From: Butyrivibrio sp.
Lineage (GTDB): Bacteria; Bacillota; Clostridia; Lachnospirales; Lachnospiraceae
Reading direction: 5' to 3'
DNA length: 59,324 bases
NCBI GenBank assembly: GCA_024692165.1
Contig: JAILMY010000085.1
Span: 1-59,324, forward strand
Shown here: piece after piece, positions 8,070-15,996 of the stretch
Position numbering within the stretch: the first letter of the stretch is position 1
Layout of the letters: every line of letters begins with the position of its first letter
Notes under the pieces: model-generated
What the model was told of the DNA's origin: nothing
What the model saw: the letters and a program-made list of their open reading frames with translations, nothing else
Database searches by the model: none
Made by a program: the position numbers and the translations under genes

Positions 8070-10121
8070 ATGGAAAAAGAAGTATTAAACAAAGAGCAGG
8101 AGCATTTAACAAAGACCTATAACAAGCTATTGGACATGAAGAAGGATCTTCAGGGTCAGATTGATGCACTCAACGAAAAGGCTGTAGACGACAAGAACGA
8201 CATTCGTGATAATATCCGCTTCGACTATGCAGATGCGGAGACCACCATGGAGACTCTTGCGGAAATTGAGGTCTGGAATCGTTATATAGATACATATAAC
8301 GTTGAGAGCAGCTCTTTGGGCAAGCGCCTGGATACGGTAAATAAGCTTCTGGAATCTCCTTATTTTGCAGAGATTCAGCTTCAGTTTGATGATGGCGAAG
8401 AGCCCGAGAATTACTATATCGGCCGCGCAGCCATTTCCGAGAACGGCTATGACCAGATGATCGTGGACTGGAGATCTCCCATTGCCGAGGTTTACTATAA
8501 TCAGGAAAACGGTCATACCCATTACACTGTTGAGGACAGGGAAATCCCTGTAGATCTTAAGCTTCGCCGTCAGTTTGATATCCAGAAGGACAAGCTGATT
8601 TCTTATTTTGATACTCAGATTGCCATTGAGGATCCGATGTTGCTTCAATCCTTGTCCCAGTCCCATTCCGACAAGATGAAGGCTATTACTGCCACAATTC
8701 AGAAAGAGCAGAATACCGTCATCCGTTATCCGGATGTGCCGGTGCTGGTGGTAAACGGTATTGCAGGAAGTGGTAAGACTTCAGTTCTGCTTCAGAGAAT
8801 TGCTTATCTGTTCTACCAGAAAAGAAAGACCCTGCGCCCGGATCAGGTATGCCTTATGACCTTGAACCCTGTGTTTAGGGATTATATTGATAATGTTCTT
8901 CCTGATCTTGGTGAGACCAATCCTTTGACTCTCACATGGCAGGAATTCATGGATATGGTCAAAGTGCCTTTCCAGGATAACGAATATGATTACACTGAGG
9001 ATGAGGCTTTGAAAAAGATACACGATGTTCTGCCTACACTGACTCCGGAAGTTGAGGATTTCTTTGATGTAACCCAGAAGGAAAAGCTGGTGATGTCAAA
9101 GAATGAGGTGTTTGCGGTAGTTAAGAAGTACAGCCAGTTCCCTATGGGAGTGCGCCTGATGCAGGTAGCCATGGACGAGCTGGAGGAAAGAGCCAAGAAT
9201 AACCTCCGAAACATGGAAGATAACATCTCTAATGAGGTGGAGGGAGAGTCTAAATCTGAAGAGGCTGATAATAACCGAATCGAAAATGATTTTGGCGGCG
9301 CCCTGACAAATATAAGACATTGTAACTGGATCAATATCACAAGAATTGCCCAGAGAATTCTTGGAAGTCAGAACATTACAGCAGCTGAATGGCTGTACAC
9401 AAAGATGGAACTGACGGGGCTTTGCGACCGTAACATGCGTTATGTTATGGTTGACGAGGTTCAGGATTATACACTTGCACAGATGATGGTATTCAGGAAA
9501 TTCTTCCCTAATGCCAGCTTTATGCTGCTTGGAGATGAGTTTCAGGCCATCAGAGAAGGTACGCTGACTTTTGCCAAAATAGAGGAGCTGGCTACAGCCA
9601 ACAACAAGAAATATGTGGAGCTGCCTCTTTTGACCAGCTATCGTAGTTCTCCTGAAATAACAGAGATGTTTGCATCAATTCTTCCTGAGGAAAAGAGGAT
9701 GATGGTATCCTCCGTTAAGCGGCCGGGAGAAGAGACCTTTGTAAAGGTTTGCAGCTCTGATAAGGAGTACATTGAAGAGCTTAAGAGTCTTATCAAGGAA
9801 TTTGGCAGTAAGGACGGTCTTACAGCCATTATCTGCAGAAACGGCTACAACCTTGAAAGAATTCATGATCTTCTTGGAGAGGATGCTCCAAGGCTTATAG
9901 CACAGGAGGATTCTCTGCCAAAGAGCGGACCATTCTTCATAGAGCTGGCACTGGCCAAAGGACTGGAATTTGACCATGTGATCCTGGCGGATGGCGAGGA
10001 TGAGTTCTATCCCGACAATGAGCTTGGTAAGCATTGCCTGTATACAGCAATTTCCCGTGCCACAAGGCAGTTGGCTATTCTGGCAAACGGCAAGCTGTCG
10101 GCAAATATTAAAACGGTATAA
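8070..10121 (+). CDS. HelD-like superfamily I helicase (UvrD/Rep type)
   Basis: A 683-residue protein matching Firmicute HelD: an N-terminal coiled coil (about residues 1-80, the part that enters RNA polymerase in HelD), a 1A domain with Walker A GIAGSGKTS near residue 231, Walker B VMVDEVQDY, and late motifs SYRSSPEI and ALAKGLEFDHVIL with YTAISRA at the end. HelD frees stalled RNA polymerase from DNA using ATP. The spacing to the DUF3048 gene is 23 bases, so they may be co-transcribed. Confidence 0.9.
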   Translation: MEKEVLNKEQEHLTKTYNKLLDMKKDLQGQIDALNEKAVDDKNDIRDNIRFDYADAETTMETLAEIEVWNRYIDTYNVESSSLGKRLDTVNKLLESPYFAEIQLQFDDGEEPENYYIGRAAISENGYDQMIVDWRSPIAEVYYNQENGHTHYTVEDREIPVDLKLRRQFDIQKDKLISYFDTQIAIEDPMLLQSLSQSHSDKMKAITATIQKEQNTVIRYPDVPVLVVNGIAGSGKTSVLLQRIAYLFYQKRKTLRPDQVCLMTLNPVFRDYIDNVLPDLGETNPLTLTWQEFMDMVKVPFQDNEYDYTEDEALKKIHDVLPTLTPEVEDFFDVTQKEKLVMSKNEVFAVVKKYSQFPMGVRLMQVAMDELEERAKNNLRNMEDNISNEVEGESKSEEADNNRIENDFGGALTNIRHCNWINITRIAQRILGSQNITAAEWLYTKMELTGLCDRNMRYVMVDEVQDYTLAQMMVFRKFFPNASFMLLGDEFQAIREGTLTFAKIEELATANNKKYVELPLLTSYRSSPEITEMFASILPEEKRMMVSSVKRPGEETFVKVCSSDKEYIEELKSLIKEFGSKDGLTAIICRNGYNLERIHDLLGEDAPRLIAQEDSLPKSGPFFIELALAKGLEFDHVILADGEDEFYPDNELGKHCLYTAISRATRQLAILANGKLSANIKTV

Positions 10122-10231: not shown

Positions 10232-12595
10232 ATGGTTGTATATTTAACCAGTAGTTTCATACCTCATCAGGATTCGGATAAATACAAAAAAGTAGCACCA
10301 TCTGAGTGTTACGGTTTTTTTGATGACCTGAAAAAAGAGTGGCCTGATTCTGCAAAGCTTCTCTATGTGCCAGCTGATCCCGATGCTGATAAGGAAATCA
10401 AAAACCAGCTCCAGAGGGTGTTGGATGCTTTTGAATTCAAAGATATTCCCGTTAAGGATGTAAAAATACTCAAGAACGAATCAGGACAGGCTCTGTCCAA
10501 ACTTATTTCCTGGTCAAACGTAATATATCTGTCCGGAGGTCATGCTCCTACGCAGTTGGCGTATATGAAGCGAATCGGGCTTAAGGATGCTCTTACTAAT
10601 TACAAGGGCCTTGTTATCGGACTAAGCGCCGGGTCCTGTAATGCAGCTTATAGTGTATATTTAATTCCTGAGAGAGAAGGGGAGGCAGTAGATCCCAACT
10701 TTGTCAGATTTTCAGCGGGGCTGGACCTTACAAATGTACAGATCATCCCACATATGGATTATGTAAAAGGAAAGACCATAGATGGCAAGGATTATTTAAA
10801 TGACGTGGTCATTCCGGACAGCTATGGCAGAAGATTCTATCTGATCACTGATGGCAGTTATTTCAAGGTAAAAGACGGAAAGACATCCTTTGTGGGTATC
10901 GGAGATATTATTGAGGATGGAGATATTAAGACTCTTAAACCCGGGATTATTGTGCCTTACATGGGATATTTTGAACAGTCCACCATTAAGACACTTCTTA
11001 AAGATGGCTATGATATGGTTGCAGGTGTTCATAAAAAAAATGAGACCTGTGAGGTTTATTATCTTGATGAAAAGCTGCAGGAGTTCTTTGTAAAAAGCAG
11101 ATTAAAGTACAGTGATATCTGTGAAACCATATCAATAGGAGTTGTTGAGGAGGAGCGGCAATCCTTCCTTGATCAGATAAAGCTTTCTGTGATAATGGAA
11201 GAGCTGAAGGACAGAGGCGACTATGTCAGAACTGTTCATGTGGATACGCCCGCAGGCCGCCGTGCCAAGAACATAAGAGTAAGAGAAATTCCGGGATATG
11301 ATGACTGGCTCATGGTCATATTCTTTGATATCACCACAGCCCTTGACCATGACTGGATGACAGACGAATATACCAGAACGGGATTTGTGGACAGGGCGAG
11401 GCTCTTCCTGGCAGAGATGCCTGAAAATGAGCATTTTTCTCTGGTTTATACGAATGTTAAGGGCTTTAAGGCAGTAAATGAACTCTTTGGAAACCAAAAA
11501 GGCGATATGGTCATCTTCCAGACAAGAGATATACTGCGCAAACATCTCAAGCCTATACTTATGGGAAGACTTGAAAGTGACCACTATGTCCTGATCACAT
11601 CAGATGAGAATCTTAAGGAAAAGAATCTTAAGACTATGTGTAATCAGACGTTTATCATCGAATCCAAAGAATTTAACCTGGAAATTCGATGCGGTATTTA
11701 TTCCATAAGGAATTCAGGAATTGAAATAACCCAGCTTCTGGCCGGAGCTAAGCTGGCGGAGAAGACTATAGGTGACGGAAAGAGAAATCGTCTTTATGCA
11801 TATTATGATGATGCCATGAAGGAAAGATATGTCACTCAGAGGTTCCTGTTATCCGATTTTGAAAGAGCTTTGGTGGATAAGGAGTTTGAGGCTTATTATC
11901 AGCCTATAGTCGATGCCAAGAGCGGAGATATAGTAAGTGCCGAGCTGCTTATCAGATGGAAGCATAAGGATCTGGGCATGGTATCCCCGGGAGTTTTTGT
12001 TCCTGTCATTGAGGAAGAGGGCAAGATTTCTGCTCTGGACAGCTTTATGCTGGATTGTGGAATCAATTTCGTGGCAGAAAGGTTAAAGAATAAAAACAAC
12101 GCAGTTCCATGTGCCATTAACCTTTCGAGAGTTGATTTTTATGATTTCGCCTTTATCGAGAGCATCTTAGAGCGAATTAAGCAGATTGGTATTCCTGCGA
12201 AAATGATCAGGATTGAAGTTACGGAGTCGGCTTATGCTGATCTTGAGACGAAGGCGATGGAGTATCTTACCAAGATGAAAAAAGCCGGAATCAAGATCCT
12301 GCTGGACGACTATGGCAGTGGCATGAGTTCACTGTCAATGCTTGAAACCTTTGATTTTGACATAATCAAGCTGGATTTGGGATTCATCAGAAAGATCGGA
12401 ATAAATGACAAGACAGAGGCTATAATCACATCAACTATTCAGTTGGCCCATGCTATAGGGGCAAAGGTAACAGCAGAGGGCGTTGAGACTGATAAACAGC
12501 TCAAATTCCTTTTGAATGCCGATTGTGATTATATTCAGGGCTATTATTTCTACAAGCCTATGCCGGAAAAAGAATTTGCTAATGTATTATCATGA
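10232..12595 (+). CDS. Peptidase S51-like / degenerate GGDEF / EAL fusion (cyclic-di-GMP phosphodiesterase)
   Basis: A 787-residue multidomain protein. Residues 1 to about 265 resemble peptidase S51 (dipeptidase E/cyanophycinase): YLSGGHAPTQL, nucleophile Ser132 in GLSAGS, His174 in IIPHMDY. About 265-375 may be a PAS-like sensor. About 375-540 is a GGDEF-like domain whose signature is replaced by ESDHY, so it cannot make cyclic-di-GMP. About 545-785 is an EAL domain with all expected residues: ELLIRW (Glu571), INLS, EVTES, LDDYGSGMSS, IKLD, AEGVET and QGYY. It should hydrolyse cyclic-di-GMP. There is no membrane segment. The ATG at 10232 has GGAG upstream; an in-frame TTG lies at 10217. It converges on two diguanylate cyclases. 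S51 joined to EAL is unusual as far as I know. Confidence 0.85.
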   Translation: MVVYLTSSFIPHQDSDKYKKVAPSECYGFFDDLKKEWPDSAKLLYVPADPDADKEIKNQLQRVLDAFEFKDIPVKDVKILKNESGQALSKLISWSNVIYLSGGHAPTQLAYMKRIGLKDALTNYKGLVIGLSAGSCNAAYSVYLIPEREGEAVDPNFVRFSAGLDLTNVQIIPHMDYVKGKTIDGKDYLNDVVIPDSYGRRFYLITDGSYFKVKDGKTSFVGIGDIIEDGDIKTLKPGIIVPYMGYFEQSTIKTLLKDGYDMVAGVHKKNETCEVYYLDEKLQEFFVKSRLKYSDICETISIGVVEEERQSFLDQIKLSVIMEELKDRGDYVRTVHVDTPAGRRAKNIRVREIPGYDDWLMVIFFDITTALDHDWMTDEYTRTGFVDRARLFLAEMPENEHFSLVYTNVKGFKAVNELFGNQKGDMVIFQTRDILRKHLKPILMGRLESDHYVLITSDENLKEKNLKTMCNQTFIIESKEFNLEIRCGIYSIRNSGIEITQLLAGAKLAEKTIGDGKRNRLYAYYDDAMKERYVTQRFLLSDFERALVDKEFEAYYQPIVDAKSGDIVSAELLIRWKHKDLGMVSPGVFVPVIEEEGKISALDSFMLDCGINFVAERLKNKNNAVPCAINLSRVDFYDFAFIESILERIKQIGIPAKMIRIEVTESAYADLETKAMEYLTKMKKAGIKILLDDYGSGMSSLSMLETFDFDIIKLDLGFIRKIGINDKTEAIITSTIQLAHAIGAKVTAEGVETDKQLKFLLNADCDYIQGYYFYKPMPEKEFANVLS

Positions 12596-12601
12596 AAAAT
12601 A

Positions 12602-12650
12602 CAGGGCATTAGTTGTTTTGGTTACCTGACAACTAGTGCCCTGCTTTTAT
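12602..12650. terminator. Bidirectional terminator between the EAL gene and the GGDEF pair
   Basis: CAGGGCATTAGTTGT at 12602-12616 pairs with ACAACTAGTGCCCTG at 12629-12643, with one G-U pair, then CTTTTATTTTT. It serves the plus strand directly. The minus-strand gene has its stop codon inside the stem. Confidence 0.8.
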
Positions 12651-14306
12651 TTTTGCTTTGTTTTCGTACATTCGCATATCTGCCAGAAGATAAGCTGCGT
12701 TCCAACTCCGGGTAACCGTTTCGTGCTTGTAGGCACATCCTACAGCTGCGGAGCGGCTGATAACTGGATCTTTTTCATTCATATCCTCAAGAGATTTATT
12801 CAAAGCATCAATACAGATGTCTGCATTCAGGATGTTTTTGTCCCTTAAAATAGCAACAAACTCATCGCCGCCGATTCTGGCAATGAATCCTTTTCCTCTA
12901 AAAGCATCTTCTAAAGCCATGCTGAAATCCGTAAGGTATTTATCACCCATGAGATGCCCCTGATTGTCGTTTACGGACTTAAGACCATTGAGATCGATAC
13001 TTATAATGCAGTAGTCCTCTCCGGATTCGTTAAGGTCATTGAGATACTTCTCATATCTTGACCTGTTTGGGATATTGGTAAGACCATCTGCATAAGCGAG
13101 GTGGGCCAAAGATTCGTTTTCTTTTTTCTTCGCATAGGTTTCTGAAATGTACACGTAATAGTTGATCAGGGATGCAAAAACCATACAAATGGCGCCCATG
13201 GGGACAGCCTTTTTGGAAAGCATGATCTGCCGCGAAATTCCCGCCAGTTCCATGTAGTAGAAAATGACATTAAAGATAAATGAGAAGGCGAGAACAGTTT
13301 GACCTATCAACTGTACCATCTGTGAATTTGCAGCTTTCTTTTTCCGAATACTTATTACCAGTAAGGCCATCATAAATGCGCACAGAATCAGGGCGTCCAC
13401 CTGGTACAGGAGCAGATACTGATTCATGTGGCCGATATTAAGCAGGTGCAAAGCAATAGGAAGTAGAGCAACTATGGACCCCGGAAGGGCGAAAAGCACA
13501 AAAAGCCTCTGCCTTATAACGTTCTGGGTACAGCCAATGACCATATACATTAAGGGTACTGCAAGATACAGTGAAATATACTCCAGCTCAGTCTGGTGAT
13601 TATAAGTGGTTAAGAACATGTCAAAGAGCTTGAACTGGGCAAGGAACCATACACCTAAAGTGATATACAGGAGAGAGGAGTATATCTGGGTGTTGACCTC
13701 TGTGATTGTACTTTTGAAACCAATGGATATGAAGAAAAACAGTAATCCGAATATGATCAGAAATAGTGATGACATAACAACAAATAGGTGATTGTACACC
13801 ACGTAAAGAAGTACATCTCTGTAACTACCGTAGATAACCGGCTCAAAGTAGTTGTAGGCACCATCTTCATTTATTTTGAGCTCAATTGTGATCAGTGCTC
13901 TGGTGTCAATGGCAGGAAGGGAGATGAAATTATTCTCACAGCCGATGAATTTGCCGTTTTGAAGATTTTTGTAATGGCTTTCTACAAAAGGAATTCCATT
14001 GTAACTTATTCTCCAGGCGCTGAATCTTGTTTCAAACATAACAGTAGGCGCGGTGTGATATTTCAAACTGCTGATATATCTGGATAATACGATAAAATCA
14101 CCCTTTTTTGTCACGCTGCCAATAAGCTCTCGAAGGTCTGAGAGCTTAATATCTGTGTATTCTGTTCCGTTGTAACGGGCGTTCCAGCCGTCGTTAAGAA
14201 CATAGACTTTGCTTAATCCTTCAGGTCTAAGGCTGTAGTTGCCTATGCCCATAAGGCTTAGGAACACCAGAAATGCAATAAAGAGATAGAGGAGTCGTTT
14301 AAACAT
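12633..14306 (-). CDS. Membrane diguanylate cyclase (7TM-like sensor + GGDEF), second of pair
   Basis: A 557-residue protein: an N-terminal membrane helix, about 150 extracellular residues, a block of about seven membrane helices (residues 175-390), then a GGDEF domain. The active site is RIGGDEF, so it should make cyclic-di-GMP from two GTP. The inhibitory I-site (RxxD before the signature) reads RGKG and is probably absent, so feedback inhibition may be lost. It starts 8 bases inside the end of the gene at 14299-15996, its paralogue, so the two are coupled. The layout resembles 7TMR-DISM receptors; the ligand is unknown. Confidence 0.88.
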   Translation of the reverse strand: MFKRLLYLFIAFLVFLSLMGIGNYSLRPEGLSKVYVLNDGWNARYNGTEYTDIKLSDLRELIGSVTKKGDFIVLSRYISSLKYHTAPTVMFETRFSAWRISYNGIPFVESHYKNLQNGKFIGCENNFISLPAIDTRALITIELKINEDGAYNYFEPVIYGSYRDVLLYVVYNHLFVVMSSLFLIIFGLLFFFISIGFKSTITEVNTQIYSSLLYITLGVWFLAQFKLFDMFLTTYNHQTELEYISLYLAVPLMYMVIGCTQNVIRQRLFVLFALPGSIVALLPIALHLLNIGHMNQYLLLYQVDALILCAFMMALLVISIRKKKAANSQMVQLIGQTVLAFSFIFNVIFYYMELAGISRQIMLSKKAVPMGAICMVFASLINYYVYISETYAKKKENESLAHLAYADGLTNIPNRSRYEKYLNDLNESGEDYCIISIDLNGLKSVNDNQGHLMGDKYLTDFSMALEDAFRGKGFIARIGGDEFVAILRDKNILNADICIDALNKSLEDMNEKDPVISRSAAVGCAYKHETVTRSWNAAYLLADMRMYENKAKIKAGH

Positions 14307-15996
14307 GATGTTCCTCCTTCATTCTATACATTCTAGTGTCGGCAAGATAAAATACGTTCTCGAATTTACCTTCTTTATCCTCGTAGCTGTATGCATAACC
14401 TGCTGAGGCAGATAAGGTAAAACATTCACGGTGTTCCTTATTGAAATCACCCATCAGCCTCTGAAGCCTGTCTATTGATTCATCGCAGATTGTGGCTGAA
14501 GGATTTTCAAAGGCCACAAGAAATTCATCACCGCCGGTTCTGCCGATAATGTCGGCTTTTTCAAAGGCTTTGACCAGAAGATCCGCAAAGGCCTTGATCA
14601 TTTTGTCTCCCTCACTGTGACCATAGGTGTCGTTAATGGTCTTAAGCTTGTCCAGGTCAAGACTTATGACAGCGTACTCACCGTGGACTGAGGCAAGATA
14701 TTGCATGCATTTTGCTCTGTTCATCAGGCCTGTAAGGGCGTCAGTATAGGCAAGACCTTCCAGGTGCTCTTTTAAAAATATTGTGTTTATATGGTCGATT
14801 CCGTTGAAGAAATAATAAATAAACAGGCAGATGATAAAGTACAGTGTTCCTATGGTCAAAAGGTTAATACTTGAATAAATGCCATCGGAAGTGGATATAT
14901 ACACGGTAAAGTTGAATTTTATTATTTCCAAAAGCGAAAAGAATATGAGGATAACAAAACCTATAAGAAGATAATTATCGGCGTCAATGTTTGTATAAGT
15001 GACGGACTTAACTCTTTCATTATGGGCTTTAACCGTGCCTGACAGCAGTGGAGGAATGATTATGAGGTTTTCTACAAAAGCTACAATCTGTATTACAGGA
15101 ACAAAGTGGTTGAAATGGATGGTATTGCTGACACTCAAAAGGAAAAAGACTATGGGCATTATGGTATTAATGACCAGGAAAATGCGCAGTCTTATTTTTG
15201 CCAGAGAAGGGTAGGTGGAATAAAGCAAGAGAGTGATGGACAGAGGTGTTAAGATAAGAGCCACGTACTCAAGCTGTGAGAAGAAATAGTCCCTATCGCT
15301 CATGATGCAGAAAATATCCTTGTAGGCATAGGTATAAATGCCAAATACCAGAGAAATAAAGGCGCTGAAAATCAGTGAACTGTTTTGTCTGTGAGTCAGG
15401 AAAAGATAGACCTCCAGAGCCAGCTGAAGAGATCCGTACATGATAAGAAAGCCACCGATGAAAATTGACAGTCTTTGGCGCTGCAGGAAGTTCTTTATCA
15501 GTTCCCGTTTTGTTCCACAGTATATTGGGAAGATATATTTAAATGCTCGATCTTCCGTGACCTTGAGCATGATTTCTATGCTATGCGCGGAGGTCATATC
15601 ATCTAATGTGACCAGATGTATCTTTTTGGGTACCATTTTCCCCTCGTCATCATAGATATGACCAAAGGTGTATGCATATCTGCCATCGATAATCACATCA
15701 ACTGTCGACAGCACATTCTTAAACATAATGGTAGGGGCATAGATTCGCTGAGCGGGGATAGTGTTAGACAGGATGATGATATCACCCTTTTTCACGCGGC
15801 CAAGATTCAGCTCTGAGAGGGTGACATTAGAATACTCATTACCACCATAGGAAACAGACCAGCCTTCATCAAGTCGAGAAAGTGATGGAGCCGGCTCCAC
15901 GAAAATATTGCTTCCAAAGATCACCATCACCACGGTGACCACTGCCAAAAGGAAGGGAAACATCAGTATTCTTTTGTTGGCGGTTTTAGGTCTCAT
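14299..15996 (-). CDS. Membrane diguanylate cyclase (7TM-like sensor + GGDEF), first of pair
   Basis: A 565-residue paralogue of the downstream gene with the same order: one N-terminal helix, an extracellular domain (LDEGWSVSYGGNEY parallels LNDGWNARYNGTEY in the paralogue), several membrane helices and a C-terminal GGDEF domain with RTGGDEF. The I-site position reads EKAD, not RxxD. Both extracellular domains share the same pattern, so they may sense related ligands. The ribosome binding site (GAGGTAG) is moderate. Confidence 0.88.
   Translation of the reverse strand: MRPKTANKRILMFPFLLAVVTVVMVIFGSNIFVEPAPSLSRLDEGWSVSYGGNEYSNVTLSELNLGRVKKGDIIILSNTIPAQRIYAPTIMFKNVLSTVDVIIDGRYAYTFGHIYDDEGKMVPKKIHLVTLDDMTSAHSIEIMLKVTEDRAFKYIFPIYCGTKRELIKNFLQRQRLSIFIGGFLIMYGSLQLALEVYLFLTHRQNSSLIFSAFISLVFGIYTYAYKDIFCIMSDRDYFFSQLEYVALILTPLSITLLLYSTYPSLAKIRLRIFLVINTIMPIVFFLLSVSNTIHFNHFVPVIQIVAFVENLIIIPPLLSGTVKAHNERVKSVTYTNIDADNYLLIGFVILIFFSLLEIIKFNFTVYISTSDGIYSSINLLTIGTLYFIICLFIYYFFNGIDHINTIFLKEHLEGLAYTDALTGLMNRAKCMQYLASVHGEYAVISLDLDKLKTINDTYGHSEGDKMIKAFADLLVKAFEKADIIGRTGGDEFLVAFENPSATICDESIDRLQRLMGDFNKEHRECFTLSASAGYAYSYEDKEGKFENVFYLADTRMYRMKEEHHV

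Follow-up and report, generated by a model that had tools for sequence, protein, structure and literature searches.

A peptidase S51-like domain as a probable sensor joined to a cyclic di-GMP phosphodiesterase in Butyrivibrio and related Lachnospiraceae

The stretch of DNA analysed here, called the window, comprises the 59,324 nucleotides of contig JAILMY010000085.1 from Butyrivibrio sp. (assembly GCA_024692165.1). One of its genes encodes a protein of 787 amino acids in which a peptidase S51-like domain is followed by a PAS-like linker, a degenerate GGDEF domain and an intact EAL domain (Table 1). The open frame starts at an ATG preceded by GGAGAA. The fusion protein is probably cytoplasmic, since no membrane or secretion segment was seen by eye (no predictor was run). 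The evolutionary evidence that the peptidase domain has become an input to the phosphodiesterase is good. We propose, with a probability of about 0.6, that the S51 domain is an enzyme-derived ligand sensor acting on the EAL domain through the PAS-like and GGDEF parts, the whole being a predicted one-component phosphodiesterase of cyclic di-GMP (c-di-GMP).

Table 1. Features of the fusion gene and its neighbours, in window positions.
Feature	Coordinates	Strand	Basis
Whole gene, 787-aa S51 - PAS-like - degenerate GGDEF - EAL	10232..12595	+	Open frame, Pfam domains
Peptidase S51-like domain, residues 1-240	10232..10951	+	
PAS-like linker domain, residues 241-368	10952..11335	+	
Degenerate GGDEF domain, residues 369-530	11336..11821	+	Pfam 40.6 bits; alignment columns
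Intact EAL phosphodiesterase domain, residues 531-787	11822..12592	+	Pfam 220.7 bits
Ser132, S51 nucleophile position (GLSAGS)	10625..10627	+	Alignment
His174, S51 triad (IIPH)	10751..10753	+	Alignment
Asp207, third triad residue (probable)	10850..10852	+	Alignment; 44/44 fusion proteins
UvrD-like helicase gene, upstream	8070-10121		
Diguanylate cyclase, intact GGDEF (RIGGDEF), convergent with fusion gene	12633..14306	-	Pfam GGDEF 83.9 bits
Second diguanylate cyclase, intact GGDEF (RTGGDEF)	14299..15996	-	Pfam GGDEF 103 bits

The domain architecture is real and conserved. A search of named genomes, from which the best 80 of 423 stretches encoding relatives were kept, returned all four parts in 35 loci, one locus truncated at a contig end, and a further 44 with an S51 domain without this tail; the loci were fetched by patterns on the GGH and IPH stretches, with the serine outside the pattern. 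By title, two of the 35 named fusions come from Clostridiales (L060) and Clostridiaceae (L061) and the remainder from Butyrivibrio or Lachnospiraceae. Among 79 genomes of the genus, 38 match an alignment of the S51 domain plus linker at E <= 1e-30, 33 of them with the long fusion and 5 with short S51 frames only. The fusion frame spans 786-833 codons in 32 of these genomes; in the other (G062, locus L118), the final part of the EAL domain lies in another frame, through a frameshift or a sequencing error. At the level of the order, 25 of 392 genomes match at E <= 1e-20 and 11 of these, G062 included, carry the long fusion; three of the 11, G442, G372 and G447, belong to two further genera within the family. 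The architecture is spread within Lachnospiraceae. Pooling these overlapping samples gave 44 distinct fusion proteins, the window's included, after exclusion of L064 (contig end), L136 (an S51-GNAT protein), L009 (the window's own copy, kept as WIN) and 27 identical copies. L017, a near copy of L016, was left out of alignments A1-A3, and L118 was entered only as its first-frame piece.

The fusion is probably of single origin, the S51 domain having been recruited once from a stand-alone, peptidase E-like S51 enzyme. When the tree was built from the S51 domain alone, one branch with a Shimodaira-Hasegawa-like approximate likelihood ratio test (SH-aLRT) value of 100 splits the 44 fusion proteins from 46 relatives without EAL, which comprise L026 and L136 in addition to the 44 named loci. 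The whole frames of these relatives gave no match to linker, GGDEF or EAL profiles even at E 10, nor did the long frame of L075 match any of them. We also looked for S51-EAL pairings of other origin. In 398 genomes of the phylum, the listed PF03575 matches, which extend to E of about 2e-12, include no frame longer than 464 amino acids; weaker matches, such as the window's and that of a 508-aa frame in G031, fall below this limit. A plasmid search returned 44 records, all from Lactococcus, none of which covers 80% of the query. In the 20 of these records that were listed, S51 or "type 1 glutamine amidotransferase-like" proteins are about 35-42% identical to the window domain.

The EAL domain retains E571, N630, E662, D692, D693, K713, E749 and Q769, which we take to be the residues that serve catalysis. 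The metal-binding and catalytic residues are identical in all 43 fusion proteins that reach this region, and the domain is predicted to hydrolyse c-di-GMP to the dinucleotide pGpG. The GGDEF domain should be catalytically dead as a diguanylate cyclase, because its signature is lost (GRLESDHY, with ESDHY in place of GGDEF) and Asn408 occupies the position of the first metal aspartate. This asparagine and an altered signature of the form [ED][SGAN]D[HNQ][FY] are found in 44 of 44 fusion proteins. Asn416 and Gly424-Asp425, which presumably lie at guanine contacts as in PleD, are likewise kept in all 44. Guanosine triphosphate (GTP) binding regulates other degenerate GGDEF domains and is a possible regulatory step here.

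The N-terminal domain scores 42.5 bits against PF03575, for which the curated cut-off is 23.9, and all 16 aligned proteins match this family at E <= 0.001. A fold search with structural alignments placed it in the S51 fold; the list for the whole protein was filled with EAL structures, so residues 1-360 were modelled separately. Salmonella PepE can be aligned with this model as far as residue 241, C-terminal strands included. In the nucleophile loop (residues 131-170), the predicted local distance difference test (pLDDT) averages 49-62 per ten-residue block in the 360-residue model and 61-89 in the full-length model. By alignment position, the window protein has a Ser-His-Asp triad of Ser132, His174 and Asp207, and the three residues co-occur in 36 of the 44 distinct fusion proteins. 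Conservation of the S51 motifs extends to Gly103, Asn137 and Asp207 (44/44 each), Gln108 (43/44), His174 (42/44) and His104 (41/44). An initial annotation of the gene had described this domain order, with the GLSAGS serine and IIPH histidine, a lost GGDEF signature and an intact EAL site, and knew of no described system of the kind. These observations are confirmed, and we found no published description of the S51-PAS-GGDEF-EAL architecture in a search that left most subscription journals and domain-architecture databases outside its range.

The strongest indication of the domain's present role is the repeated replacement of its nucleophile. Residue 132 is serine in 36 of the distinct fusion proteins, glycine in 7 and asparagine in 1; the copies without the nucleophile are L022, L023, L024, L053, L124, L125, L131 and L135. 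On a tree of the linker, GGDEF and EAL parts, parsimony counts 7 changes at this position, at least 5 of which are forced by well-supported branches. While parsimony is blind to loss versus regain, we read the changes as losses because the relatives have serine. Serine is replaced in none of the 46 relatives without EAL, over a similar total branch length (17.6, versus 15.6 in the fusions). The difference has a Fisher p of 0.002 with relatedness ignored; if losses are taken as proportional to branch length, 7 losses give a p of 0.005 and 5 losses a p of 0.023. The relatives are mostly best matches rather than a random sample, and their serine was not selected for, since the search patterns used GGH and IPH.

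The pocket around the lost nucleophile is mostly retained. Of the eight copies, five have His104, His174 and Asp207 in place, and in four of the five the complete GGH is present. His174 is replaced in two fusions (L125 and L131), both also without the serine. Further motif residues are lost, with the EAL residues intact, in L135 (His104) and L131 (Gly102, His104 and His174). In the one close nucleophile-less pair (L022/L023), the ratio of nonsynonymous to synonymous substitution rates (dN/dS) is 0.062 for the S51 domain versus 0.065 for the PAS-like domain, which argues against free decay, though dS is saturated at 3.2. Such ratios are of limited use across the family: in 6 of 14 pairs one or more domains gave no value, and dS is high in most of the others. 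As the EAL residues are constant and the S51 nucleophile has been lost repeatedly, the conserved output looks to be c-di-GMP hydrolysis, with peptidase chemistry dispensable in several lineages.

These patterns suggest the following mechanism. A small ligand would bind the S51 pocket, and the PAS-like domain and the dead GGDEF domain, the latter perhaps with GTP bound, would pass on the occupancy of the pocket. The relayed change would raise or lower EAL hydrolysis of c-di-GMP. In members with the Ser-His-Asp set, the window's included, the sensor may slowly hydrolyse its ligand and thereby reset itself. Enzymes of the S51 fold are known to act on cyanophycin, processed microcin C and peptides of the Asp-X and isoAsp-X kinds (PMC9239234; PMC11078827), and by this chemistry the most likely ligand would be an amide or peptide of Asp or isoAsp type. 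Ligand binding, ligand identity, relay, direction of regulation and EAL activity are all inferred. The initial annotation had likewise read the protein as a sensor joined to a phosphodiesterase, a reading that is supported here.

The argument against free decay has evidence on the other side. The highest S51 dN/dS of the computable pairs, 0.203, belongs to a pair that differs at the nucleophile (L011 with Ser, L053 with Gly), and the S51 domain is generally less conserved than the EAL domain. The type of ligand is extrapolated, since S51 families differ and several members are without peptidase activity (PMC9239234).

A competing explanation is that the protein is a bifunctional enzyme, in which a working Asp-X or isoAsp hydrolase and a working EAL domain couple peptide turnover to c-di-GMP breakdown and the nucleophile-less copies are secondary losses. 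The co-occurrence of the triad in most fusion proteins favours this, as does the alignment with PepE, because "long" PepEs, with C-terminal strands, are the active ones. Active MccG (PMC9239234) and Streptomyces Orf2 (PMC11078827) also have a Ser-His-Asp triad. The window copy keeps the same set and may therefore still hydrolyse its ligand. Peptidase activity cannot be a property of the whole family, however, given that Ser132 is replaced in 8 of 44 members. About seven replacements in the fusions, against none in the relatives and an unchanging EAL site, make the bifunctional explanation unlikely, and several clade II proteins of S51 are without peptidase activity (PMC9239234).

It is more doubtful still that the S51 domain is a mere dimerisation or scaffold module that pairs two EAL domains and binds no ligand. 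EAL domains are commonly dimeric in action and PepE is dimeric; additional motif residues are missing from three of the nucleophile-less copies, and some of the conserved S51 residues may be structural. A scaffold, however, need not keep the glycine, asparagine, aspartate, glutamine and histidine positions that are invariant or nearly so across the fusions. An artefact joining two genes can be dismissed: the source assembly is fragmented (246 contigs, 87% complete), but the intact full-length frame in 32 of 79 genus genomes, with strain-named Butyrivibrio records among the carriers, rules out a join by assembly or sequencing error.

The fusion belongs among the sensor-GGDEF-EAL proteins and is not a new kind of system. 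PA0861/RbdA (5xgb), DosP (9cmf) and MorA (4rnh) share its C-terminal order of PAS-like, GGDEF and EAL domains, the folds and the intact EAL; in place of an S51 input they have sensors of the haem-PAS, PAS or membrane kind. On the input side, PepE (6a4r), CphB (3en0), DR_1070 (6iru) and a putative peptidase E of Listeria (3l4e) are 12-19% identical to the window domain in structural alignments, whereas the domain here is joined to PAS-GGDEF-EAL, in a fused family whose nucleophile has been replaced about seven times. MccG, which lies outside these alignments, is likened by its triad as described. The nearest sequence family is formed by stand-alone S51 relatives of Clostridia, mostly of about 240-250 amino acids, which are 31-45% identical in the best segment and share the motifs but have no signalling tail and keep the serine in all 46 sampled. 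We found no function for these relatives; stand-alone types are labelled "type 1 glutamine amidotransferase-like" or "peptidase E" among the Lactococcus plasmid matches. A further likeness is PruR of Agrobacterium, a sulfite oxidase-like protein without the molybdenum-ligating cysteine, which binds a pterin and shifts DcpA towards the breakdown of c-di-GMP (PMC13259868). In PruR, as is proposed for the fusion family, an enzyme-like protein with a catalytic ligand residue missing takes up a small molecule and shifts the balance of a diguanylate cyclase/phosphodiesterase protein, but PruR is separate and periplasmic while the S51 domain is fused and probably cytoplasmic.

Of 36 fusion loci, L035 alone shares the immediate neighbours of the window's gene, the tandem pair of diguanylate cyclases included, and L035 is also the nearest protein to the window's in the linker-GGDEF-EAL tree. 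When open reading frames at 36 loci plus the window were clustered, with flanks of up to about 5 kb and several shorter, no gene family recurred as a partner at more than 6 loci; at the 44 loci without EAL, the most frequent family of neighbours, by eye a transporter, occurs in 9. The fusion protein is the sole PF03575 match in its genome at E <= 0.001. That genome also has 20 other matches to the GGDEF/EAL part and 4 matches to PilZ that exceed the cut-off, so its cells probably use c-di-GMP signalling. The link to cyanophycin-like metabolism drawn in the initial annotation is unsupported. No cyanophycin synthetase scores over cut-off in the genome (best 159 versus 850 bits, with a model that also matches in 14 of 14 control genomes and exceeds the cut-off in 1), and the 25 of 26 NCBIfam matches listed, down to E 0.042, include no cyanophycinase family. 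We keep cyanophycin as a distant prospect because the genome is 87% complete.

Other S51 fusions were also seen. Four of the 46 relatives without EAL are joined to other domains: a GNAT acetyltransferase in L136 (919-2187, minus strand), from the window's genus, and in L085 (5001-6263), a Maf-like domain in L096 (5001-6377) and a putative esterase in L092 (5001-6527). Together with the EAL case, these make the S51 subfamily look promiscuous as a fusion partner. An S51-like domain with a methyltransferase occurs in two genomes of the window's genus, in L031 (676-2121, minus strand; by Pfam) and the near-identical L032. The 508-aa frame of G031 is assigned to the same type by its near copy L031.

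Many c-di-GMP phosphodiesterases have input signals yet to be identified. An input domain from an enzyme family with known chemistry provides a short list of candidate ligands, and related proteins with and without the nucleophile are a natural comparison set. More tentatively, the fusion may represent a new class of c-di-GMP input: an S51 hydrolase domain, fused once in Lachnospiraceae to PAS-GGDEF-EAL, that became a cytoplasmic sensor for some metabolite of peptide or amide type, with its pocket mostly retained and its nucleophile repeatedly lost, so that peptide or isoaspartyl metabolism would directly set c-di-GMP breakdown in rumen bacteria. If true, common rumen bacteria would possess a peptide- or amide-sensing c-di-GMP switch, and the family would be a conversion of enzyme to sensor caught part-way.
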